From assembly GCA_903933805.1 (NCBI GenBank), contig CAIZLM010000168.1, forward strand, positions 1 through 32,308: DNA of 32,308 nucleotides. The letters are read 5' to 3'. The notes under the pieces were generated by a model. It saw only the letters and a list, made by a program, of their open reading frames with translations. It was not told the DNA's origin and made no database searches. This stretch comes from an uncultured Bacteroidota bacterium. GTDB lineage: Bacteria; Bacteroidota; Bacteroidia; Chitinophagales; Saprospiraceae. A program made the position numbers and the translations under genes. This document shows positions 3,632 through 18,683 of this stretch, piece after piece (position 1 is the first letter of the stretch; every line of letters begins with the position of its first letter).

Positions 3632-6034
3632 TCAACGCAGCAGGGTAATGTCTCCTTGCAGCCGTACCAGCAGTCCGGGTTCGTATTCAACCTCGGCCAT
3701 GAAAACAAATACGGACGGCGTCAGGGGGCTGCCTCGGAAGCTGCCGTCCCAACCTGATGCGAGGTCGTTTGTCAGAAATCCGCGGTTTTCAAACACCAAT
3801 TCACCCCAACGGTCGTAAATCCGCAGCCAGTTTACCGGGAGATTGTCTTTGCTGAAAAGGGTGAAACGCTCGTTGCCATTGCTGGAAGTTGGCGAAAATA
3901 TGTTGGGTGCAAAAATACTGGGTTCCAAAATGATGCGCACCATATCGGTGGCGGTGCATCCCGCAGCATCGGTAACCACCACGCTGAAGTTGGTCGTTTC
4001 GGTGGGGGTGGCGGTGAAACGCAGAAAATTGGGGATCCCCTTACCTGCCGGCAACCATTGAACATCCTCCACGCTCCTGCTCGGCGTTGCGTCAAGCAAG
4101 ACATAGTCGCCAATTTTTACCGGCTCGTCTATTTTGACGATGTTTAACTGTACCGAAAGACTGTCTGGCTGCCCAATACTTACCTCAAGGGGGCGGTTGT
4201 AACAACCGGTAACATCCCGCACCACCAACTGATAGGTGCCAGCGTGTAAACCTTGCGCACTGGAGTTTTGAGAAAAACTTTGACCCTGATTCACAGAATA
4301 TTGGTACGGAGCAAGTCCGCCCATGGGCGTCCCAAACAAAATTTGCCCGTCAGAATAGTCATAGCAGGAAGGATCAACGGTGCTGTAGGGGAATACTGGA
4401 GAGTTGAAAACAGCGGTAGTCGTATCTTCTGCAAAATCAGCGCGCCGACATACCCCCAAATAGCCCCGGGCCGTGTAAAGCCCTGGCGCGTACGCCACAA
4501 AAAATGAGTCTGGCCCGTAGGTGAGCAGGGAGTCTGCATAATACCATTGAACGCCGTCAAAGCGCCCGCTGGCCACCAAGGTGTCGGGACAAACCCCGTC
4601 ACCGATGATGCGAAGGCTGATGTCTGCTTTGGCTGTTTTGCTGAAACCTGAATAGAAGGCGCCAAAACCTGCCGCGCCATTGCGCCCAAACATGGCCACT
4701 TGCACAGCGCCCTTGGCGATCACGCTGGTCGTGTTGATGGGGTTGCTCTCGCTGAACAGGCTCAACCGTCGATAGGTTACAAAATCGGGGTTGCCCATCA
4801 CCGCATCGGCTGCCCCCAATGCAACAAGGGTGTTGTTCACGCGTACCTCTACGGTGGAGTCTTTCATGGCAACGATCATCAGACCGCCATCGTACGTGAC
4901 TACACCAATTTGATTGGGCTGGTAAATGTTGTTGACGGCGTTGGGAATGGCACAGGAGATGGGTGGAACAAAAATTAGCCCAGCTGTGCGCTTGGCATCA
5001 TCGCCAGAGGGTACACCTCCGATGATCTGATAGACAAATGTCGGTTGAGAACAGAGAATGTACATATTTCCCGCACTGGAATATCGACTGGTGGGGATAC
5101 GATAATATTCGCCGGCATTGAGTACCACTGTTGGGGAAGTCTCTCCATTGAGCCACACACTGGTATTGTCCACGTGGGCAATCACCAAGGGGGTCTCCAG
5201 CTCGTCGGAGCCATTGCCTTCGCACAGGATATACTCTTGCCCCACCTGGTCGAATGGCGCGATTTGGTCGAGCCCTACATCGTTGGAGTTGTCAACCGGT
5301 GAGCCTGTCCAAGAACCGCAGTTGATGGCCACCGGTTTGGTGGAAATTACTTTCGAGCCGATGAGGCCATTGGGGGGTTGACTGCTGCTGGCGCCCACAT
5401 AATGCCCGAATACCACAGTCTCGCCAGCCTGAAGAGTTATCGTCTGAAGGCCTGATACTGCGGTGAGCACACCGCCGATTTGGAAATCAGTTCCGGGGTC
5501 AAAATCGGAGAGGGTCACAACGGTGCTGTCTTCTGTGGCCATTACGCCTACAAAATTGCAGCGCTGGCTGTTGCTGGAATAACTTTGGAAAACATGTCCA
5601 ATTCGAAAAGCGGTGCCCAGTGCACTTCGGCCTTTGCAGGTTAGGTCTGCCGCCTGAAATTGCGAATCGCTGTGAAACCTGAAATTTACATAGAATTTTT
5701 TTTCTCCAACCAACACCAATCCCTTGTTTTGCAGCGGCTTGTGTAGGTCGCTTTCCAAGACCATCACGGCGGTATTGCCCGAACTGCCAATGCTCCAACG
5801 CCCCGGCAGGGCATTGGAAATGACGACCGTCCCGAGTACATTGCCCCCGCCATCTCGAATTGTAATGGGAAAGGGGTCTTGTTCAGGGGTGGAAAGGTAG
5901 AGGTATTGTGGCCCCAATTCAGACCGGCCGTGCATGGGCGGAAGCCAGTGTATGGAGTCAAGTTGGGCGTGGACATTGTTGGGCAGGCAAAGAACCGCCA
6001 GCAACAGACAGGGAAAACAGAATAATCGCATCAC
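3632..6034 (-). CDS. Secreted IgGFc-binding-like / SprB-repeat protein with type B T9SS (CHU_C) tail
   Basis: This is an 800-residue exported protein. Residues 1-23 form a signal peptide ending NNVHA, with cleavage before Gln. Residues about 40-460 resemble the IgGFc-binding-like N-terminal domain of Bacteroidota surface proteins, with repeated hydrophobic strands such as SKVISTKPVAINCGSW. Residues about 550-625 look like an SprB repeat (SDGQILFGTPMGGLAPYQYS ... YQLVVRDVTGC), and about 630-700 like a PKD-type domain (FSVVVTDAAGCTATD). The last 90 residues are the gliding-motility-associated type B sorting domain (APNIFSPTSSNGNERF, LRIYDRWGELVFEN, GWDGS), which directs type IX secretion to the surface. 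MM at the start leaves a one-codon ambiguity. Its specific ligand cannot be inferred. The gene diverges from the serine hydrolase gene and has a hairpin in its 5' leader. Confidence 0.85.
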   Translation of the reverse strand: MMRLFCFPCLLLAVLCLPNNVHAQLDSIHWLPPMHGRSELGPQYLYLSTPEQDPFPITIRDGGGNVLGTVVISNALPGRWSIGSSGNTAVMVLESDLHKPLQNKGLVLVGEKKFYVNFRFHSDSQFQAADLTCKGRSALGTAFRIGHVFQSYSSNSQRCNFVGVMATEDSTVVTLSDFDPGTDFQIGGVLTAVSGLQTITLQAGETVVFGHYVGASSSQPPNGLIGSKVISTKPVAINCGSWTGSPVDNSNDVGLDQIAPFDQVGQEYILCEGNGSDELETPLVIAHVDNTSVWLNGETSPTVVLNAGEYYRIPTSRYSSAGNMYILCSQPTFVYQIIGGVPSGDDAKRTAGLIFVPPISCAIPNAVNNIYQPNQIGVVTYDGGLMIVAMKDSTVEVRVNNTLVALGAADAVMGNPDFVTYRRLSLFSESNPINTTSVIAKGAVQVAMFGRNGAAGFGAFYSGFSKTAKADISLRIIGDGVCPDTLVASGRFDGVQWYYADSLLTYGPDSFFVAYAPGLYTARGYLGVCRRADFAEDTTTAVFNSPVFPYSTVDPSCYDYSDGQILFGTPMGGLAPYQYSVNQGQSFSQNSSAQGLHAGTYQLVVRDVTGCYNRPLEVSIGQPDSLSVQLNIVKIDEPVKIGDYVLLDATPSRSVEDVQWLPAGKGIPNFLRFTATPTETTNFSVVVTDAAGCTATDMVRIILEPSIFAPNIFSPTSSNGNERFTLFSKDNLPVNWLRIYDRWGELVFENRGFLTNDLASGWDGSFRGSPLTPSVFVFMAEVEYEPGLLVRLQGDITLLR

Positions 6035-10550: not shown

Positions 10551-10844
10551 TCGAGTGAAAAACCGAATCAGGAGCATAAAAAAATCAGGAGTACACTTTT
10601 TGGGAGACGGGAGAAGACGGTTGATAAGGCCTTGAAAAGGCCTTACAAGCCATAAAACGCGTCAAAAAAACAAGCAAAAAAATAGCCTTAAATAATTGAT
10701 AATCAATATTTTATATAAAAAAACATCAAAAATTCAAAAAAAGTGGCGGGCGACGACACCCTGCTTTGTGTCCTATGCTACCCCTTCGTTCCGCGTGACC
10801 TTTGCTTTGTCAAAAGGAATAAGAAACAATAAAAACATTGTCAC
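10551..10844. other. AT-rich non-coding leader before the peptide cassette
   Basis: No convincing gene lies here. Two AAGGCCTT palindromes sit four bases apart near 10625-10645 and can fold on each other. A run of A/T with A-tracts follows (about 10660-10740), containing a perfect 13-bp inverted repeat ATTGATAATCAAT at 10695-10707. Further on is a possible weak -7 element, GACCTTTG (10797-10804), about 40 nt before the peptide ATG. The make-up is that of a regulated promoter region with a possible operator. Confidence 0.45.
10695..10707. promoter_or_regulatory. 13-bp perfect inverted repeat, possible operator
   Basis: ATTGAT-A-ATCAAT is fully symmetrical and lies in an A/T-rich stretch about 140 bp before the repeat-peptide gene. 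Its arms resemble CRP/FNR half-sites, but the 1-nt spacer is wrong for that family, so the binding protein is unknown. Confidence 0.3.
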
Positions 10845-10997
10845 ATGAAAAGCGCACGGATACTCCCAACCACGACCAATCAGCTAGAAAATCAGGGTCC
10901 TTCTAACATCACAGGACTTGATCTGATCGGCGCCTGCATCACCGGCTTAGACATGATCGGAGATGGTATCACAGGTTTGGATTTAATCGGTGTATAA
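10845..10997 (+). CDS. 50-residue repeat peptide (three ITGLDxIG repeats), unknown function
   Basis: A short open frame from ATG to TAA encodes 50 residues. Residues 1-21 form a polar leader (MKSARILPTTTNQLENQGPS, then N), and residues 22-50 are three tandem units of ITGLDLIG or ITGLDMIG separated by AC and DG, the last ending in V. Across the three copies, T, G, L, D and the final G use different synonymous codons, which is the pattern expected when the amino acids rather than the DNA are conserved. There is no signal peptide and one Cys (31). It is the first gene of a same-strand cassette, 99 bp before the next gene and separated from it by a hairpin. I do not recognise a family. A modified-peptide precursor, a signalling peptide or a small structural repeat peptide are all possible, but no modifying enzyme is adjacent. 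Confidence 0.72.
   Translation: MKSARILPTTTNQLENQGPSNITGLDLIGACITGLDMIGDGITGLDLIGV
10908..10994 (+). repeat. Three tandem 30-nt coding repeats (last one 27 nt)
   Basis: Units run 10908-10937, 10938-10967 and 10968-10994. They encode ITGLDLIGAC, ITGLDMIGDG and ITGLDLIGV. The DNA copies have diverged mostly at third positions (for example Leu25/35/45 as CTT, TTA, TTG), so they are old repeats kept by protein-level selection rather than a recent slippage product. Confidence 0.8.
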
Positions 10998-11096: not shown

Positions 11097-11561
11097 ATGG
11101 GAAATTTCATCAACACAAACCACCCCATGGGTAGCCAAGCCAAGGCGCCGATGATTCGATCGGTATTTGGTTTGCGGCAACTTTCCAGTGGGATGCAACA
11201 GTTGAGTTGCGACGTGGTTTTTGGCTCACCCAGGGCCGATTGCTTGGGCACCGGTGTATGCAAAATATCTGCCTTGGGTTCTATGCCCAAGACCAATGGT
11301 GTGACCCGCAATTGCCAAAGTGCACCGGGTATCCTACTCCCGCTCGAGGGTGGCAAAGGTGTTTCACTGGTAATACTGCGTGAAATGATGTGCATCAAAT
11401 TGTTGCGTACCCAGTTTCGCACCGGCGTTTTGACCTTAACAGAACCTTGTCGCTTACCCCTTGATATCATCAACGCCTTGTCGTTAAAATTCCAGGAATT
11501 AAAGCCTGGAAGCTACCGATTGGAAGAGGCGAACGGTTTTTTTAGAATTAATTTTATTTAA
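11097..11561 (+). CDS. Uncharacterised 154-residue protein with six cysteines
   Basis: The protein has no signal peptide or membrane segment and is probably cytosolic. Cysteines are at 38, 49, 55, 73, 99 and 118. Cys49 and Cys55 sit in FGSPRADCLGTGVCKI, the most motif-like stretch. The middle is hydrophobic (LVILREMMCIKLLRTQF) and the C terminus LKPGSYRLEEANGFFRINF has the look of a small beta domain. AGGA six bases before the ATG is an unusually good ribosome-binding site for this phylum and supports the start. It is the second gene of the same-strand cassette, with 99 bp before it and 82 bp after. I recognise no named family. Metal or cluster binding is conceivable from the Cys content but is not shown. 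Confidence 0.7.
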   Translation: MGNFINTNHPMGSQAKAPMIRSVFGLRQLSSGMQQLSCDVVFGSPRADCLGTGVCKISALGSMPKTNGVTRNCQSAPGILLPLEGGKGVSLVILREMMCIKLLRTQFRTGVLTLTEPCRLPLDIINALSLKFQELKPGSYRLEEANGFFRINFI

Positions 11562-11643: not shown

Positions 11644-12069
11644 ATGAGTGAATTGAACAAAAGAGAATTTCCCGGAGGGATCTTTCTCGCAACGCTTTTC
11701 CTGCTATTGAGTCTCTTCTGTAGCAGCCGGGTAGAAGCCCAGTCCATACAGCCCAAAGTAAATGCGGCTACGTACAACTGGAAGCCAGCCCAAGATGTAT
11801 CCACCATTCTGCTTAGCCAAGTGCAGACGCTGAACCAGCAAATGCCAGGCTTGACAGAAGGAACCCCTCTTTACGATAATACCCTGCGTAGGATCGCCTT
11901 TTTCAAATCCATTGTGGTGGAAATTGGCAAAGGTGCTACGGTAGCGGAGTCGCTTGATCTGTCCCTGACGGCAGCAGCAACCCTGGGTTTTTCGAAAGAA
12001 GCCTCTTACACATCAAAACTTGCCTTGCGCGCGCTCCACACAGAAACGCGCATCATGTTAACCAATTAA
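11644..12069 (+). CDS. Small secreted protein of unknown function (141 residues)
   Basis: Residues 1-33 form a signal peptide: a charged start (MSELNKREFPGG), a hydrophobic core (IFLATLFLLLSLFC) and cleavage after VEA before Gln. The mature part of about 108 residues looks mainly helical (STILLSQVQTLNQQMPGL, IAFFKSIVVEIGKGATVAES, TSKLALRALHTETRIML) and has no Cys, no sorting tail and no lipobox. It would therefore be periplasmic or bound to a partner. It lies 89 bp before the giant surface protein gene on the same strand, which suggests a chaperone-like or accessory role for it, but that is inference. No family recognised. Confidence 0.7.
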   Translation: MSELNKREFPGGIFLATLFLLLSLFCSSRVEAQSIQPKVNAATYNWKPAQDVSTILLSQVQTLNQQMPGLTEGTPLYDNTLRRIAFFKSIVVEIGKGATVAESLDLSLTAAATLGFSKEASYTSKLALRALHTETRIMLTN

Positions 12070-12158: not shown

Positions 12159-15100
12159 ATGAAAAAGAGCAACAGCAATCTAATTTTACTAATGGCCTTC
12201 TTTTGGGCGTTCATGTGCGGCAGCTTGCTGGCACAGACGAACCTGAACTTAGCGGCCAACGGTGTCACGCCGGGCAGCCCATTTACCATAGCGCCCCCAA
12301 CGACATGTTCCTTCAATTTCTTTGACAGTGGTGGTTCTACCTTGAATTACAACAACGGAGCCAACGCAAATGTCACTTTCCTGCCTTCAAACGCAGCGAC
12401 ACACCGCATTCAGGTGACTTTTACAACCTTCTCGCTTGAGCCTGGTTACGATGCATTCTACATCTACAACAGCAATACTGTTGGCACAAACCAAGTACCA
12501 GGTCCTCAGGGCGCTACTTTCGCAGGATTTCCCGCCGGCAACTGGCAGAACATCAGTCCTGGAACGATAACGGCAAGCAAAGATCTCGCCGACGTAGGTG
12601 TTAACCCTACAGAAGCCCTTACATTCCAATTCCGCTCAGACAACTCCATCTCGTATCCGGGCTGGACGGCTGTCGTACGCCAAGTGACAAAAGATCCTTG
12701 TGCCATGACAGCACCCGCAGCACAAACGGTCAACACCGGCTTGGGCGCATTGAGCTGTTTTGGAAATGTATCCACACCCATTCCTACTTTCGCGCCTGCT
12801 GGCTGCAACACCGGTTCTCAAATCAGATACCGCATCAATGGTGGTCTTCCAACCAATGTATCCGGTTCCGGCCCCGTTAATCTAACCGTTCCTGTTGGTT
12901 CCAACATTGTGACCTGGGAATTGGTTGATCCATGCGGCGGTGGCATCATTACCACAGGCAATCAATCTATAACAGTTATTGACAACACACCACCGACCAT
13001 CACTTGTCCGGGCAACGTTGTATTTAACCTCGATGGAGGCCAGTGCGAGCAATCGTACAACTACAGCGTTTCTTGCAGTGATATCTGTCCTTTTACCGTC
13101 ATTCAATCGGTTACGCACCCTTATGATGGTACTACCGGACAAGCGGGTGTCATGTTTGACGTTGTCAACTTGAGCGCAAACCCATTGACCATTTCCCAGT
13201 TTGGCCCATCCTTGGATGCCGGCACACATCCTATGGAAGTGTACTTTACCAACGCATCCTCTACTTGGGTGGGTAACGATCAAAATCCTGCAGCGTGGAC
13301 GCTTGCGGGTGCTATTTCTGTAACATCTTCCGGCCCGGGTTCCGGTACTGCTATCCCAGGATACGGTATTACCCTGGCTCCAGGCCAATCACTGGGTATT
13401 TATTTGACCAGCACAGCCGGCGCGCCAATGCGTTACACCAATGGTGTACGTCAAGTTGCTGATGCCAACCTGCGTGTTTCGTCCAATCCTGGTTCAGGTA
13501 AGGTGTATCCTTTCGCAACAACGTTCCAAAACCGCTCTTACAACGGTTTTGTAAGCTATTCAACAGTTGCCAACCAGGCGCCAGTTCAGTTGAGCGGCTT
13601 GCCTTCCGGTTCTTATTTCCCGATTGGCACCACCGTCAACGTATTCCGTTGCACAGACGCAACCGGTCTTTCCGCCACATGTTCTTTCTCCGTAACCGTG
13701 AAAGAGTATCCTAACCCAACATGGGTGTTGACTTGTAGCGACTTTATTACCGTTGCCTTGGCAGACAACACCTGCTCGGCCAAAATACACGCTGACGACA
13801 TCCTCGACGGAGGTCCATACCGCTGCTATGACAACTATGTAGTAGAAATCGACAAAATTGCACCATTCGGCAACGGCCCATGGGTGCCTGCCGATCTTAC
13901 GTCTGCCGACATTGGCAAGACCTACCGCGTGCGTATCACAGAGCCCATCAACGGCAATAAATGCTATTCTGATGTAAAAGTATTGGACAATGTGAAGCCT
14001 AAAATCAGTTGCAGGCCTTCAGAAGTAACGATTCCTTGCAATTACTCCACGGATCCAAGAGTTGCTTCTACGACGGCACTTTCTTTGAACTTCCCAACGG
14101 ACGTAGCATTGCCGGTACTCGTACACGACAAAGAAACGCGTGAGTTTTCAATTCCAGTTGCGGTATCTCCGGGTGCTGTGGTGAATGACGTAGATTTCAG
14201 AACAAAAATTTCCGGTGACGCATTCTTCAACAACCTGCGCATCCAAGTCATTAGCCCATCGGGTACCATCGTAACCGTTTGGAATGAATTTACGGGTTGC
14301 GCTCCTGCGCCAATCTTCACACGTTTCGACGACGAAGGTTCTGACTTGTTGGATTGTGCAACCTATACGACCGACATCAATGCAGAGATTCCACTTGGAC
14401 TGGGTTCATTGAGCAGTTTTGATGGAGAAGATGCCAATGGAACTTGGATTATACGGGTGACCGACACAAACGGTGGCTTGCCTTCTACGATTTCTTCTGT
14501 TGACATCGCAGAACTGCACATTACGGCACTTGGCACTTTTGGTGCAGGTTTCCCGAATGACTTGACGCCTCCACAGGTTACACCACTTGGCCTCAATGGC
14601 TACAATGTTCCTGCTGGTTTGTTGGATGAGTGTGCCTCTTCTACGCTCACGTACTTCGACCAAGTTGCACCACAGGGTTGCAATTCGATCTATACCAAGA
14701 TTATTACACGCCGCTGGACTGCAACCGACCTTTCGGGCAACAGCTCCACTTGTATTCAGACGATCAACTTGTTGCGCCCACGTTTTGACGATGTAGTGGC
14801 TCCACCAGATTATGATGATATCGACAAGCCCGCTTTTGAATGCGGAAGTGAGTACCCAACACCAAGTTGGATTCAGAACCAAGGTTTACAGGGTTTCCCT
14901 TATGTCTTCGGCTTGCCCGACATCTGCAACCTCAACACGGCATACCAAGATACACGGGTAGGCAATTGCGATGGTTCTTACGACATTTTGCGTACCTGGA
15001 CCGTGATCGATCCATGTGTAGCAATGGGTTCCATGCTGTATGAGCAAGTGATTCACGTACGTGACCAATCGGGTCCTACGTTTGTCGATTGCCCCGCAGA

Positions 15101-18100
15101 TATGGTTGAAACAACAGATCCATACACTTGCTGTGCGTCTTTCAACTTCCCAGACATCCTCGTGGAAGACAATTGTTCCCGCATCAACAATGTGTACGCA
15201 CTGGTATTGACCATTGATCCATTCACCGGTGATACGACTTCGTTCATCCCTGTAGATGGTGGACTGTACGATTTCCCAGGCAACCTGCCAAACTATTCCG
15301 ATACGCTGGCTTCCTTCGGCAATATGCCTTGTATTCCACTTGGCCGCCACATTGTTGTGTACTTTGCACAAGATGATTGTGGTAATGTTGGTACTTGTTC
15401 CTTCCGCTTAACGGTGGCTGACTACTCACCACCACAAGCTGCTTGTGACGAAACAACGGTTGTATCTGTAGGTGTTGATGATCCGCAAGATTGCTACTAC
15501 AAAAGCTCCAACGGTTGTGAATTCGCCGGGGTAACTTGGGTAAAATCGGAAACCTTCAACGATGGTTCTTACGACCAATGTAGTCCGATTAAATACACGG
15601 TTCGCCGTGCACCACCATACAGTGATTGTATCAAAGCACTCGACCAGTCTTCTTGCAATGGCAGTCCTTCCGGCTTGTCAGAGTATGAAATAGCAACTGC
15701 AGAATCTGATTCCATCAAGTTTTACTGCTGCGAAACGAATACAACACAGATGGTTATCCTTCGGGTTTATCAACTGAATTACAACGGAAATATCTCCAAC
15801 TATCCTGACGGCACGCCAGTGTACAATGAGTGCGAGATCGCGGTAACCGTTCAAGACAGGCTGAAACCAATATGTGAGTCGCCGCTCAATGTGACGGTAT
15901 CTTGTGAAAACTTCGATCCTTCCCTCTGGGTTTATGGAAAAGCAAAAGTGTACGACAACTGCTGCCTTGATCCTACCAAAGAATACCTGGGTCAGAAAGG
16001 ACTTTCGCACACGGTGAACTACAGCCAGTTTGACACCATTTGCAACAAAGGCACCATTGTACGCACGTTCAGGGCGTATGACTGCCAAGGCGCTACCAGC
16101 CAGTGCACACAGCGCATCGTTGTGAACTACGAACAAGATTACTTCATCAAATTCCCAGATGACAAAGTCATCAGTGTATGTGATGGAACAGGTGTATATG
16201 GAGAACCTACATTCTTCGGCGAAGATTGTGAATTGCTGGGTGTTTCTTACCAAGACCAAATATTCACCGTAGTGCCTGATGCATGTTTCAAAATTGAGCG
16301 CACTTGGAAAGTTATCAACTGGTGCACCTACAACCCACAGGTCGCTTGCGTCGCGGTACCGAATCCGAATCCAAATTCGAATTCGAGTTCCCCAACCAAC
16401 TTGCCAGGGCCAACCGTGTCTCCTGCCGGAACAGCCGGACCATGGTCGCCAACGGTGGTAAAAATTAACCCGAACGATGCACAAGCCACAAACTTCAGTA
16501 CGTTCTGGTATGCGGATGCAAACTGCTACACCTACAAACAGATCATCAAAGTCATTGACAACCAAGCTCCGGCCATTCAATGCCCACCTAGCCCGGTTGA
16601 ATACTGTGACCTGACCGACAACAACCCACGTCTGTGGAACGAATCTTACTGGTACGACCCAGTCATTCAATCACATGACCTCGCAGATGCACCCACAGAT
16701 TTGAGCATTGTAGCATCCGACCTTTGCTCAGGCTCTAACCTGACAGTACGTTACATCTTGATCCTGGATCTTGACAGCGACGGCATCATGGAAACAGTTG
16801 TCAGCAGTTCGAACCTGCCATTGGCTGGTACCGTTAACTTCGACAACGTTAGCACACCCAACTTCACCGGCGGCACGGTACGTACCTTCGATGAGCGTCA
16901 GGTGTCTGCTGCACAGAAATACCGATTCGCACTCCAAACGGTGGCAAATGGTACTTCCCTGACAGCCTCGGTACGTTGGAACTCACAAGCAGCGCAAAGC
17001 TCGTATGTAGTGCCTGAATTGCCTTACGGAACCCACAAAATCAAATGGGTTGTAGGAGATGGTTGCGGCAACGAAGCCGTGTGTGAATATACTTTCGTCG
17101 TGAAAGATTGCCACCCACCAGCCATTGTTTGTACCAACGGTTTGAGTGTTAACATGACAGCATGGGGTATGGCGGTGTTGTATGCCAGTGACTTCTTGGT
17201 GTACTCCAGCGACAACAATACACCAGATGATCAACTTGAATTTGGTATCATTAAGTCAGGTACCGGTGCAGGCTTCCCATTGGATGCAAATGGCAACCCA
17301 GTTGTTTCCTTACAGTTTAACTGCGATGAAATTGGTACGCAACCTGTTGAACTGTGGGTAAATGATGCGGCCGGAAACACAGACTACTGTGAAACGTACA
17401 TCATCATTCAGGACAACGGCGGAAACTGTGTCACCGACATGGCTACCGTATCAGGAGCACTGAAAACAGAAGGTGGTGAAGGCTTGGAAGAGAGTGACGT
17501 GGAGTTGTCGGGTCAAAATCCTGCCGGTCCGTCATTCGATCACTTCGACCTTACCGACCACAGCGGTGCGTATGACTTCATCCACGCCGTGCCTGTTTTC
17601 TCCAACTATGTGGTTACCCCAGCGCTGGACAACAACCCGCTCAATGGTGTAACAACGTATGACCTTGTCTTGATCAGCAAACACATCCTCGGTATTCAGC
17701 CGCTCGGATCGCCTTACAAAATGATTGCAGCCGACGCCAACATGTCGAACTCCATCACCACGTTTGACTTGGTTGAATTGCGCAAACTGATCTTGGGTAT
17801 CTACCAGGAGTTGCCTGCTAACACCAGCTGGAGGTTTGTTGACAAATCATTCAACTTCGCCAACCCAGCCAATCCATTCACTGCCGCTTTCCCTGAAAGC
17901 AAAACAGTGGCTGCTATTCAAGCCAATGCTATGGCCGACGATTTTGTCGCCATCAAAATTGGTGACGTGAACAACTCGGTTATCGCCAACTCGCTCATGA
18001 TCAACGAAGATCGCAGTGTAGGTACCCTGGTGTTCGATGTGGATGATCGTTCGGTGAAAGCAGACGAAGTATTCGAGGTAAAATTCAAGGCCGCTGAAAA

Positions 18101-18683
18101 AGTAACCGGCTACCAGTTTACCCTGAATTACAGCGACTTGGAACTCGTAGATGTGGTTACAACAGACAATATGAAGACGGATAACTTCGCAGTCTTTTCT
18201 GCTGAAAACGCTTTGACGACCTCTTGGAACGGTGACAATCAGGCAGAGTTTACCCTCAAATTCAGGGCAAAACGCACCGGTGAGCTCAGCAAAATGCTGT
18301 CCCTCTCCAGCCGAATCACCAAAGCAGAAGCCTACAAAGTAGCAGTAGAAAACCAACCAGCTGAGTCTTTGTCAATCGGATTGCGCTTCAATGGTAAAGA
18401 AGGTTCTGTCCTGACTGGTGTTGGGTTTGAACTTTACCAAAACGAACCCAACCCATTTGTCAACCGCACCAACATTGGCTTCCACTTGCCTGAAGCAACC
18501 ACCGCTCACCTTTCTGTGTACGATGAATCAGGTCGGATGGTTTACTCTCAAAAAGGAGATTTTTCTAAAGGCTACAACAGCTTTATGCTGGACAAAGCAA
18601 TGATCAAAACCACCGGTGTACTTTACTACACCCTGGAGACTGAAACAGATGCTGCCACCAAGAAAATGATTCAAGCAAAATAA
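12159..18683 (+). CDS. Giant secreted HYR-like/P-domain/dockerin- and cohesin-like protein with type A T9SS tail
   Basis: A 2174-residue surface or released protein. Residues 1-25 are a signal peptide (LILLMAFFWAFMCGSLLA, cleaved before Gln). Residues about 50-178 look CUB-like (HRIQVTFTTFSLEPGYDAFY). Repeated Cys-rich HYR-like units follow, marked by phrases such as IDNTPPTITCPGNVVF and IDNQAPAIQCPPSPVEYC. A proprotein-convertase P-like domain is at about 640-793 (LRIQVISPSGTIVTVWN, EDANGTWIIRVTD). A low-complexity linker NPNPNSNSSSP is near 1403-1413. A dockerin-like pair of calcium-loop repeats is at about 1825-1883 (TYDLVLISKHILGIQ, ADANMSNSITTFDLVELRKL), a cohesin-like domain at about 1955-2078, and the final 85 residues (FELYQNEPNPFVNRTNIGF) are a type A sorting domain. 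Adhesion or matrix scaffolding is the likely role. It ends the cassette at a terminator. Confidence 0.9.
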   Translation: MKKSNSNLILLMAFFWAFMCGSLLAQTNLNLAANGVTPGSPFTIAPPTTCSFNFFDSGGSTLNYNNGANANVTFLPSNAATHRIQVTFTTFSLEPGYDAFYIYNSNTVGTNQVPGPQGATFAGFPAGNWQNISPGTITASKDLADVGVNPTEALTFQFRSDNSISYPGWTAVVRQVTKDPCAMTAPAAQTVNTGLGALSCFGNVSTPIPTFAPAGCNTGSQIRYRINGGLPTNVSGSGPVNLTVPVGSNIVTWELVDPCGGGIITTGNQSITVIDNTPPTITCPGNVVFNLDGGQCEQSYNYSVSCSDICPFTVIQSVTHPYDGTTGQAGVMFDVVNLSANPLTISQFGPSLDAGTHPMEVYFTNASSTWVGNDQNPAAWTLAGAISVTSSGPGSGTAIPGYGITLAPGQSLGIYLTSTAGAPMRYTNGVRQVADANLRVSSNPGSGKVYPFATTFQNRSYNGFVSYSTVANQAPVQLSGLPSGSYFPIGTTVNVFRCTDATGLSATCSFSVTVKEYPNPTWVLTCSDFITVALADNTCSAKIHADDILDGGPYRCYDNYVVEIDKIAPFGNGPWVPADLTSADIGKTYRVRITEPINGNKCYSDVKVLDNVKPKISCRPSEVTIPCNYSTDPRVASTTALSLNFPTDVALPVLVHDKETREFSIPVAVSPGAVVNDVDFRTKISGDAFFNNLRIQVISPSGTIVTVWNEFTGCAPAPIFTRFDDEGSDLLDCATYTTDINAEIPLGLGSLSSFDGEDANGTWIIRVTDTNGGLPSTISSVDIAELHITALGTFGAGFPNDLTPPQVTPLGLNGYNVPAGLLDECASSTLTYFDQVAPQGCNSIYTKIITRRWTATDLSGNSSTCIQTINLLRPRFDDVVAPPDYDDIDKPAFECGSEYPTPSWIQNQGLQGFPYVFGLPDICNLNTAYQDTRVGNCDGSYDILRTWTVIDPCVAMGSMLYEQVIHVRDQSGPTFVDCPADMVETTDPYTCCASFNFPDILVEDNCSRINNVYALVLTIDPFTGDTTSFIPVDGGLYDFPGNLPNYSDTLASFGNMPCIPLGRHIVVYFAQDDCGNVGTCSFRLTVADYSPPQAACDETTVVSVGVDDPQDCYYKSSNGCEFAGVTWVKSETFNDGSYDQCSPIKYTVRRAPPYSDCIKALDQSSCNGSPSGLSEYEIATAESDSIKFYCCETNTTQMVILRVYQLNYNGNISNYPDGTPVYNECEIAVTVQDRLKPICESPLNVTVSCENFDPSLWVYGKAKVYDNCCLDPTKEYLGQKGLSHTVNYSQFDTICNKGTIVRTFRAYDCQGATSQCTQRIVVNYEQDYFIKFPDDKVISVCDGTGVYGEPTFFGEDCELLGVSYQDQIFTVVPDACFKIERTWKVINWCTYNPQVACVAVPNPNPNSNSSSPTNLPGPTVSPAGTAGPWSPTVVKINPNDAQATNFSTFWYADANCYTYKQIIKVIDNQAPAIQCPPSPVEYCDLTDNNPRLWNESYWYDPVIQSHDLADAPTDLSIVASDLCSGSNLTVRYILILDLDSDGIMETVVSSSNLPLAGTVNFDNVSTPNFTGGTVRTFDERQVSAAQKYRFALQTVANGTSLTASVRWNSQAAQSSYVVPELPYGTHKIKWVVGDGCGNEAVCEYTFVVKDCHPPAIVCTNGLSVNMTAWGMAVLYASDFLVYSSDNNTPDDQLEFGIIKSGTGAGFPLDANGNPVVSLQFNCDEIGTQPVELWVNDAAGNTDYCETYIIIQDNGGNCVTDMATVSGALKTEGGEGLEESDVELSGQNPAGPSFDHFDLTDHSGAYDFIHAVPVFSNYVVTPALDNNPLNGVTTYDLVLISKHILGIQPLGSPYKMIAADANMSNSITTFDLVELRKLILGIYQELPANTSWRFVDKSFNFANPANPFTAAFPESKTVAAIQANAMADDFVAIKIGDVNNSVIANSLMINEDRSVGTLVFDVDDRSVKADEVFEVKFKAAEKVTGYQFTLNYSDLELVDVVTTDNMKTDNFAVFSAENALTTSWNGDNQAEFTLKFRAKRTGELSKMLSLSSRITKAEAYKVAVENQPAESLSIGLRFNGKEGSVLTGVGFELYQNEPNPFVNRTNIGFHLPEATTAHLSVYDESGRMVYSQKGDFSKGYNSFMLDKAMIKTTGVLYYTLETETDAATKKMIQAK
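16359..16388 (+). repeat. Short degenerate hexanucleotide repeat encoding an Asn/Pro/Ser linker
   Basis: Five imperfect copies of CCGAAT-like hexamers (CCGAAT, CCGAAT, CCAAAT, TCGAAT, TCGAGT) encode PNPNPNSNSS between two folded domains of the giant protein. This looks like slippage-grown linker DNA in which copy changes stay in frame. Confidence 0.6.

Follow-up and report, generated by a model that had tools for sequence, protein, structure and literature searches.

A short repeat gene ending in a conserved nonapeptide in Saprospiraceae, a candidate peptide partner of the TPR-like protein p510

The window analysed here, a stretch of 32,308 nucleotides, represents contig C168 of a 4.2-Mb, 97% complete genome of an uncultured member of the Saprospiraceae (Bacteroidota). 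It contains a mini-ORF with three tandem ITG-type units, followed on the same strand by the genes for p154, p141 and a giant surface protein. The features of this region, together with one gene located elsewhere in the genome, are:

10696–10706, plus strand: palindrome TTGATAATCAA (TTGATnATCAA type), 5' of the promoter core; the aligned upstream regions of relatives show it in loosely conserved form
10748–10753, plus strand: GGGCGA; relatives keep the first two G without exception and vary in the remainder (GGGCGA, GGGTGA, GGGATA, GGACTT)
10769–10804, plus strand: promoter-like core TGTCC-N24-ACCTTTG; its two boxes are the same in all 23 aligned loci
10805–10844, plus strand: A-rich leader preceding the ATG; a convincing conserved RNA structure was not found in it
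10845–10997, plus strand: mini-ORF of 50 aa, ATG to stop, with three ITGLD[LM]IG units and the C-terminus ITGLDLIGV; homologues at 22 further loci in the genus
10908–10937, plus strand: unit 1, ITGLDLIGAC, residues 22–31 (translation; motif-pattern match at 10908–10930)
10938–10967, plus strand: unit 2, ITGLDMIGDG, residues 32–41 (translation)
10968–10994, plus strand: unit 3, ITGLDLIGV, residues 42–50, the C-terminal nonapeptide (translation; pattern match at 10968–10990)
11097–11561, plus strand: p154, an orphan protein modelled as beta-rich (46-sequence alignment, structure model, neighbourhood comparison)
11644–12069, plus strand: p141, a small protein with an apparent signal peptide (reading; neighbourhood comparison)
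12159–18683, plus strand: giant surface protein of 2174 aa with HYR, P-proprotein and a T9SS sorting tail
G000:C291:2636–4159, minus strand: p510 of the same genome (L218), on another contig and outside the window

The mini-ORF translates as MKSARILPTTTNQLENQGPSNITGLDLIGACITGLDMIGDGITGLDLIGV followed by a stop codon, which agrees with the 50-residue frame and three tandem units described in the initial annotation. Seven positions of the unit (I T G L D. I G) carry the same residue in all three copies, while the synonymous codons for T, G, L, D and the second G vary among them, again as first read. The Asp of unit 3 is the fifth residue from the C-terminus, and the L-to-M change in unit 2 is the only one of its kind among 46 units from 23 loci. 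The N-terminus is polar and, as had been noted before, a signal peptide is not visible by reading. A second copy of the mini-ORF was not found in the 4.2-Mb genome.

Homologues were collected by a protein search of 100 relatives, by degenerate-DNA searches of 398 family genomes and seven further ones, and from the flanks of p154 homologues; the DNA searches require exact motif codons, and diverged forms would escape them. Eight named relatives, all of them MAGs, bear the labels Saprospiraceae, Lewinellaceae, Saprospirales or Chitinophagales. Including the window, the ITG mini-ORF occurs at 23 loci in 23 genomes of a single genus. Outside this genus, the 398-genome search gave nothing beyond one ITGLDFIG match in another genus (G200), which lies inside a 65-residue open frame and was taken as chance. 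All 23 ORFs end with ITGLDLIG[AV]-stop, and the N-terminal part varies from locus to locus in sequence and in length, with a minimum of 10 residues. The unit is present once in ten ORFs, twice in seven, three times in two and four times in four. The residue that joins two copies is C, K or R everywhere but at the second junction of the window ORF. Outside the window locus the ORFs are 19–60 aa long, with four of only 19 aa. Start, frame and cassette are kept in these relatives without frameshift, the sequence-based points on which the initial annotation had proposed to judge the gene. The single-copy versions of 19 aa, the wider mini-ORF family and p510 had escaped it because they lie outside the window.

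The 46 units are encoded by 44 DNA forms and yield two protein forms. Adjacent copies within the peptides differ by 104 synonymous versus 2 non-synonymous codon changes (23 loci, one genus), whereas the same differences placed randomly would give about 78 non-synonymous ones, the lowest of 2000 draws being 64. By codon position, the nucleotide differences between copies amount to 18, 0 and 100 for positions 1, 2 and 3. The units were collected via an eight-codon motif pattern that strongly diverged units could escape, but none were present in the full ORFs. Together, the unit forms and the codon ratio indicate that the ORF is translated, and the ratio further implies that every copy is maintained, the inner ones as well as the last. 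Judged by its codons, 10845–10997 is thus a genuine gene under selection as a protein, in agreement with the earlier proposal that the peptide is translated and selected. A non-coding repeated DNA or RNA element, which the 30-nt DNA period might recall, was ruled out by this codon test: 44 DNA forms collapse into two protein forms, and such an element is barely credible here.

Among the ITG loci, p154 follows the mini-ORF in all 21 that have more than 200 nt of downstream sequence, two other contigs ending within 150 nt. Behind p154, p141 is present in 19 of the 21 (L121 has no p141 match and contig L113 ends after 535 nt), and the giant surface protein gene is present in 20. By this comparison of neighbourhoods the mini-ORF is the first gene of a same-strand operon, which extends to the relatives the leading position that the ORF layout of the window had already suggested. 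p154 is doubled in three ITG loci (L104, L108, L110) and also on contig L107 of G038. Across 46 aligned p154 sequences (alignment A1), G43, P45, C49, G51, G53, C55, C73 and G138 are invariant. The three cysteines sit in a G-P-C-G-G-C pattern, and metal or cluster binding by p154 is possible. Its model is beta-rich (pLDDT 77), and the idea of a known fold was discarded after structure searches of PDB and BFVD at E ≤ 0.001 and a Pfam search gave none, NCBIfam nothing below E 0.05 and the PDB sequences a single match at E 0.67. About 5 kb upstream of the operon, on the opposite strand, a second T9SS-type surface protein with IgGFc_binding and a CHU_C tail is encoded (3635–6031, minus strand).

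The constant position of p154 behind the mini-ORF, and its beta-rich model for which a known fold was not found, would suit a structural role. In that case the peptide would join p154 or the giant surface protein in an assembly, as a strand-like or chaperone segment, with the repeats providing avidity and p510 serving as an assembly chaperone. The p154 homologues L124–L126 and L135–L137, however, lie where neither a kindred mini-ORF nor a p510 is seen, and this role appears quite unlikely.

The promoter-like core ends about 40 nt 5' of the ATG in the window, and its ACCTTTG box resembles the Bacteroidota -7 element. TGTCC-N-ACCTTTG was considered as a signal private to this operon and rejected, as it also stands 5' of other genes and of a probable RNA. 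The bare pattern is not in excess, with 261 matches versus 290 for the backward control in 37 same-genus genomes, and the sample of matches at other genes was picked by eye among the matches listed. This picked sample yielded further mini-ORFs. By reading, it also includes genes for small lipoprotein-like Cys-containing proteins (L178, L180, L194), in tandem at L178 and L180. At L170 (own genome, C198:7589–7624, minus strand), L174, L177, L188 and L190, this type of promoter is followed by a conserved stretch that lacks a proper ORF and shows a common 'MRLYKGN' or similar pseudo-frame. This stretch is perhaps a structured small RNA; searched against Rfam, it gave nothing up to E 0.1.

A 5' UTR hairpin noticed by eye in several species failed a comparison of folding with shuffled sequences. 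The mean z was -0.6 for 23 leaders and -0.8 for 21 gaps between the mini-ORF and p154 (measured up to the first ATG that opens a long frame), with z below -1.5 in 5 of the 23 leaders and 4 of the 21 gaps, and no RNA structure common to either set was found. An RNA attenuator was set aside, as leaders and gaps fold on average little better than shuffles. Rfam gave nothing at gathering scores for the window; in a search of eight loci its matches were two tRNAs, both in a single locus, and one below threshold.

These data bear on the possibility that the mini-ORF encodes a cis-acting leader peptide, with nascent ITGLDLIGA stalling the ribosome near the stop codon and so controlling how p154 and the remaining operon genes are translated or transcribed. 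Such a role would agree with the first position in the operon, the conserved C-terminus, the free N-terminus and the p154 gene downstream in every locus with enough sequence, and individual loci do have strong gap hairpins (e.g. L104, z -4.1). A structure common to the whole set was nevertheless not found, and the inner copies are kept as strictly as the last; a leader peptide is therefore considered unlikely.

Graspetides and other multi-core RiPPs carry tandem core-like repeats, as the ITG ORF does, and the fixed Thr–Asp spacing of its units would allow a crosslinked multi-core precursor. In contrast to these systems, the ITG ORF has no conserved leader, and neither an ATP-grasp nor any other modifying enzyme was found in a Pfam scan of 13 of the 20 window ORFs of at least 120 aa (all but the seven at the two window ends). 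A NCBIfam match is likewise absent, and the Thr of the unit is not common to the sister mini-ORFs described below. A RiPP precursor is consequently regarded as highly improbable, and the Thr–Asp side-chain crosslinking once suggested for this peptide is not supported. The initial annotation had left the choice between a multi-core precursor and a repeat-built signalling peptide; the look of a repeat-built signalling peptide is supported, and the RiPP half has lost ground.

The most probable partner of the ITG peptide is encoded apart from it in the window's genome. p510 (508 aa) is modelled as an all-helical protein (pLDDT 85, pTM 0.76), and several paralogous p510 are present per genome. Foldseek aligned the model to TPR proteins, with a probability near 1 for most and no match at E ≤ 0.001; these included LbcA, APC/C subunits, an eIF3a domain, KLC1 with cargo peptide, MalT domain III, the peptide-bound Rap of phi105 (rank 2), RapI (rank 10) and AimR (rank 16, TM 0.40/0.50). 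Generic TPR proteins match the model as well as pheromone receptors do. A profile search of the PDB sequences returned two weak chains, the better one a designed TPR domain (E 0.006), and no pheromone receptor. Pfam TPR matches are weak, the best among 34 p510 members reaching E 0.0013 and those of the first member lying under the cut-off; one of the 34 matches Las1 (7e-05). The 25 of 40 Pfam families listed for p510 include no DNA-binding family. A TPR-like fold of p510 is thus predicted, with support from the model, and the fold comparison does not single out a pheromone receptor. In RRNPP receptors, conserved Asn residues can contact the peptide backbone; p510 has four Asn kept at 82% or more.

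In 42 same-genus genomes (G000–G041), an ITG-type p510 is present in 23 of 23 genomes with the ORF versus 1 of 19 without it, as raw counts that ignore kinship; all 19 ORF-less genomes were searched with the DNA pattern. The exception, G014, is a 77%-complete assembly. The ITG-type p510 of G001 and G015 are partial genes at contig edges, and the G013 match contains an in-frame TAG, with an open piece of 503 aa. Identity scarcely separates the two groups, as the lowest ITG genome (G032) has 60% and the highest ITG-less genome apart from G014 has 59%; the 60% line had been drawn after the values were seen and was superseded by the tree clade. A Fisher value of 1.3e-9 belongs to an earlier 20/0/1/16 table and is uncorrected for relatedness.

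In a careful tree of 44 p510 rows, the ITG clade has a support of 99/94 and comprises 25 rows from 24 genomes: all 23 ITG genomes, whether linked or unlinked (G013 twice), and G014. L218 of the window's genome falls within it. p510 genes adjoining other peptide classes fall outside this clade, and those adjoining II-IDxxG peptides form the next one (100/100). A quick tree of 88 distinct p510 proteins, with long branches, excluded rows shorter than 380 aa as well as rows duplicated over their last 300 aa, and retained the near-identical rows L122/L123, L244/L245 and L234/L267; L236 was left out of alignment A2. On this tree the seven peptide classes need six changes, which is the minimum, whereas 500 label shuffles required at least 18 (mean 22.4). 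A class peptide lies within 900 nt downstream of 37 of the 88 genes; it is not seen there in the other 51, some of which have a divergent or upstream one and others none that was seen.

Since linked genes have a common history, the match between class and clade is by itself not proof of contact. Among the 17 ITG loci with at least 1.5 kb of upstream sequence, p510 adjoins the mini-ORF in seven, 255–561 nt upstream on the same strand, and these are seven of the eight single-copy loci versus none of the nine multi-copy loci. Gain of unit copies accompanied loss of linkage, perhaps in a single event. In the window's genome p510 is not adjacent to the mini-ORF. As judged from the genome comparison, the ITG ORF and its p510 clade are kept together after linkage is lost.

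Many kindred mini-ORFs have a p510 of about 510 aa as their upstream gene. Several p154 paralogues without an ITG ORF have other mini-ORFs 5' of them behind the same promoter, with ends such as IIVIDVMGV, IIIIDMNGV and IIIVDLNGA. By p510 searches and reading of the flanks, the following classes were collected: ITGLDLIG[AV], II[IV]DI[AST]G[VA], II-IDxxG[AV], [IV]DTT.., IDV[IT]G. and VDII.P. The patterns were written after the peptides had been seen and were revised once to take in L224 and the IDVxG class. Asp is the fifth residue from the C-terminus in 34 of 37 class peptides, partly by construction, as three classes (18 peptides) are end-anchored; in the ITG and DTT classes, both large and unanchored, it has this position in 16 of 16 peptides. 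In three order-level relatives (G062, G065, G073) sister mini-ORFs adjoin p510 where p154 is unmatched, which argues against both a cis-acting leader of the p154 operon and a structural partner of p154.

A hydrophobic-run motif (three or more hydrophobic residues among the four that precede an Asp at the fifth position from the end), fixed before counting but after most peptides had been seen, occurs in 25 of 304 sense small ORFs downstream of p510 versus 0 of 327 antisense ones, although at least one of the 25 (L270) looks like chance. An earlier pattern had given 33 of 277 sense versus 3 of 283 antisense. Upstream of p510 the motif is found in 12 of 340 sense ORFs, five of which are the same ORFs recounted between tandem p510 genes, and in 6 of 351 divergent ones, where three look like chance and three belong to order-level relatives. 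The order-level divergent ORFs (L272, L274, L275) have a common D..EL or D..DL end. In loci without p510 or p154 the count is 10 of 1821, and two of these (L181, L192) adjoin a p510. The ITG unit itself fails this motif, as Thr and Gly occupy the run; what places it in the wider family is context (promoter type, p154, p510), together with its final G-[AV] and the Asp at the fifth position from the C-terminus.

Some of these loci show further features. At L224, in another genus (g15), two consecutive mini-ORFs lie downstream of p510, one with VIVVDIIAPSA and the second with a double-glycine-like leader (KLEQKDVKGG) immediately 5' of VIVVDIIAPL, which suggests C39-type export. The mini-ORFs at L241, L242, L192, L181, L274 and L275, some in other families of the order, are divergent from p510 and combine an N-terminal hydrophobic signal-like stretch with a short hydrophobic-acidic end. 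Taken with the L224 leader, such N-terminal stretches in homologues would suit secretion. Tandem p510 pairs at L244–L248 and L252 have a VIIIDITG-type mini-ORF behind the first p510; the second p510 forms a separate clade, and its own mini-ORF was not seen.

The reading favoured here, with a rough probability of 0.55, is that the ORF encodes the peptide half of a peptide–receptor pair with p510, RRNPP-like in its working. It builds on a gene, a protein-level selection, an operon and a lasting class–clade pairing, all established by sequence comparison. A fixed C-terminal peptide paired with one p510 clade, and sister peptides with sister clades, is what ligand–receptor co-divergence would look like. 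For the remaining steps, i.e. binding, switching and the regulatory target, we infer the following. The active part would most likely be the C-terminal nonapeptide ITGLDLIG[AV], and tandem copies would add further ligand units. Binding would take place at the concave face of the TPR-like helical p510 and would switch the action of p510, probably on the operon led by the mini-ORF (p154, p141 and the giant T9SS surface protein). It may act inside the producing cell or after export and uptake; both routes are considered because the ITG peptide has no visible secretion signal. The fixed distance between Asp and the C-terminus fits internal copies awkwardly unless the copies are cleaved.

RRNPP(A) pairs are described as a small propeptide beside a TPR receptor of 250–500 aa, and RRNPP_detector as applied to Firmicutes and viruses (excerpt of PMC10075063). 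Mature pheromones are given as 5–10 aa, typically C-terminal, some with 1–4 repeats (excerpt of PMC11343458), and the portions of PMC10075063, PMC11343458 and PMC9765709 drawn on here treat these systems in Bacillota and their phages or plasmids. For Bacteroidota, the open-access literature yielded no published pairing with a TPR-bound peptide pheromone. The ITG/p510 pair resembles Rap–Phr, AimR–AimP, Rgg–SHP and PlcR–PapR in its small ORF, at part of the loci beside a protein of TPR-like fold, and in its conserved C-terminal residues behind a variable N-terminal part. The 1–4 tandem ligand copies, the several p510 paralogues per genome, a p510 fold weakly similar to those of Rap and AimR, and the lengths of 50 aa here and 19–60 aa at other ITG loci, within the propeptide criterion of 10–100 aa, are further likenesses. 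In RRNPP(A) systems the propeptide leaves the cell by Sec, or by PptAB for SHP and PrgQ, and the mature peptide binds in the TPR groove. In contrast to RRNPP(A), the host belongs to the Bacteroidota, p510 is slightly longer than 250–500 aa, the peptide lacks a visible secretion signal, the pair can be unlinked, and the peptide has its own promoter with the p154/giant surface-protein operon behind it. p510 also has no sequence match to a solved RRNPP receptor (Rap, Rgg, NprR, PlcR, PrgX, AimR); because receptor homology was tested at the sequence level and not found, the pair is not classed as an RRNPP member.

Streptococcal SHP pheromones end in a short hydrophobic stretch that includes glycine and an acidic residue, as the ITG peptide does, but their acid stands at the start, whereas that of the ITG peptide is inside the motif, fifth from the end. 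According to an excerpt of PMC10075063, SHP and PrgQ have no Sec signals and SHP is not Sec-exported, which adds to the likeness. Phr105 and Phr3T also contain identical or near-identical tandem ligand units in one precursor, although Phr propeptides are exported and cut by extracellular proteases (excerpt of PMC11343458).

With lengths down to 19 aa, as in four genomes, these peptides will probably be overlooked in annotation, and looking beside p510-like genes may expose many more mini-ORFs. A broader picture is put forward tentatively and remains doubtful: a large undescribed Bacteroidota family of p510 TPR receptors would exist, with several members per genome, and each receptor would have a dedicated mini-ORF. 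The C-terminal peptide of that mini-ORF, with Asp at the fifth position from the end, would be exported, taken up and sensed, controlling giant T9SS surface proteins and other targets by cell density. If true, it would represent RRNPP-like quorum sensing of separate origin in a two-membrane phylum. In the papers drawn on here, TPR-receptor peptide signalling is described from Bacillota and their phages and plasmids, and a case in the Bacteroidota would open the cell–cell communication of this phylum to direct test, with a named ligand and receptor as a testable entry. The link to a giant T9SS surface protein suggests a role in the adhesion or the floc and biofilm life of Saprospiraceae.
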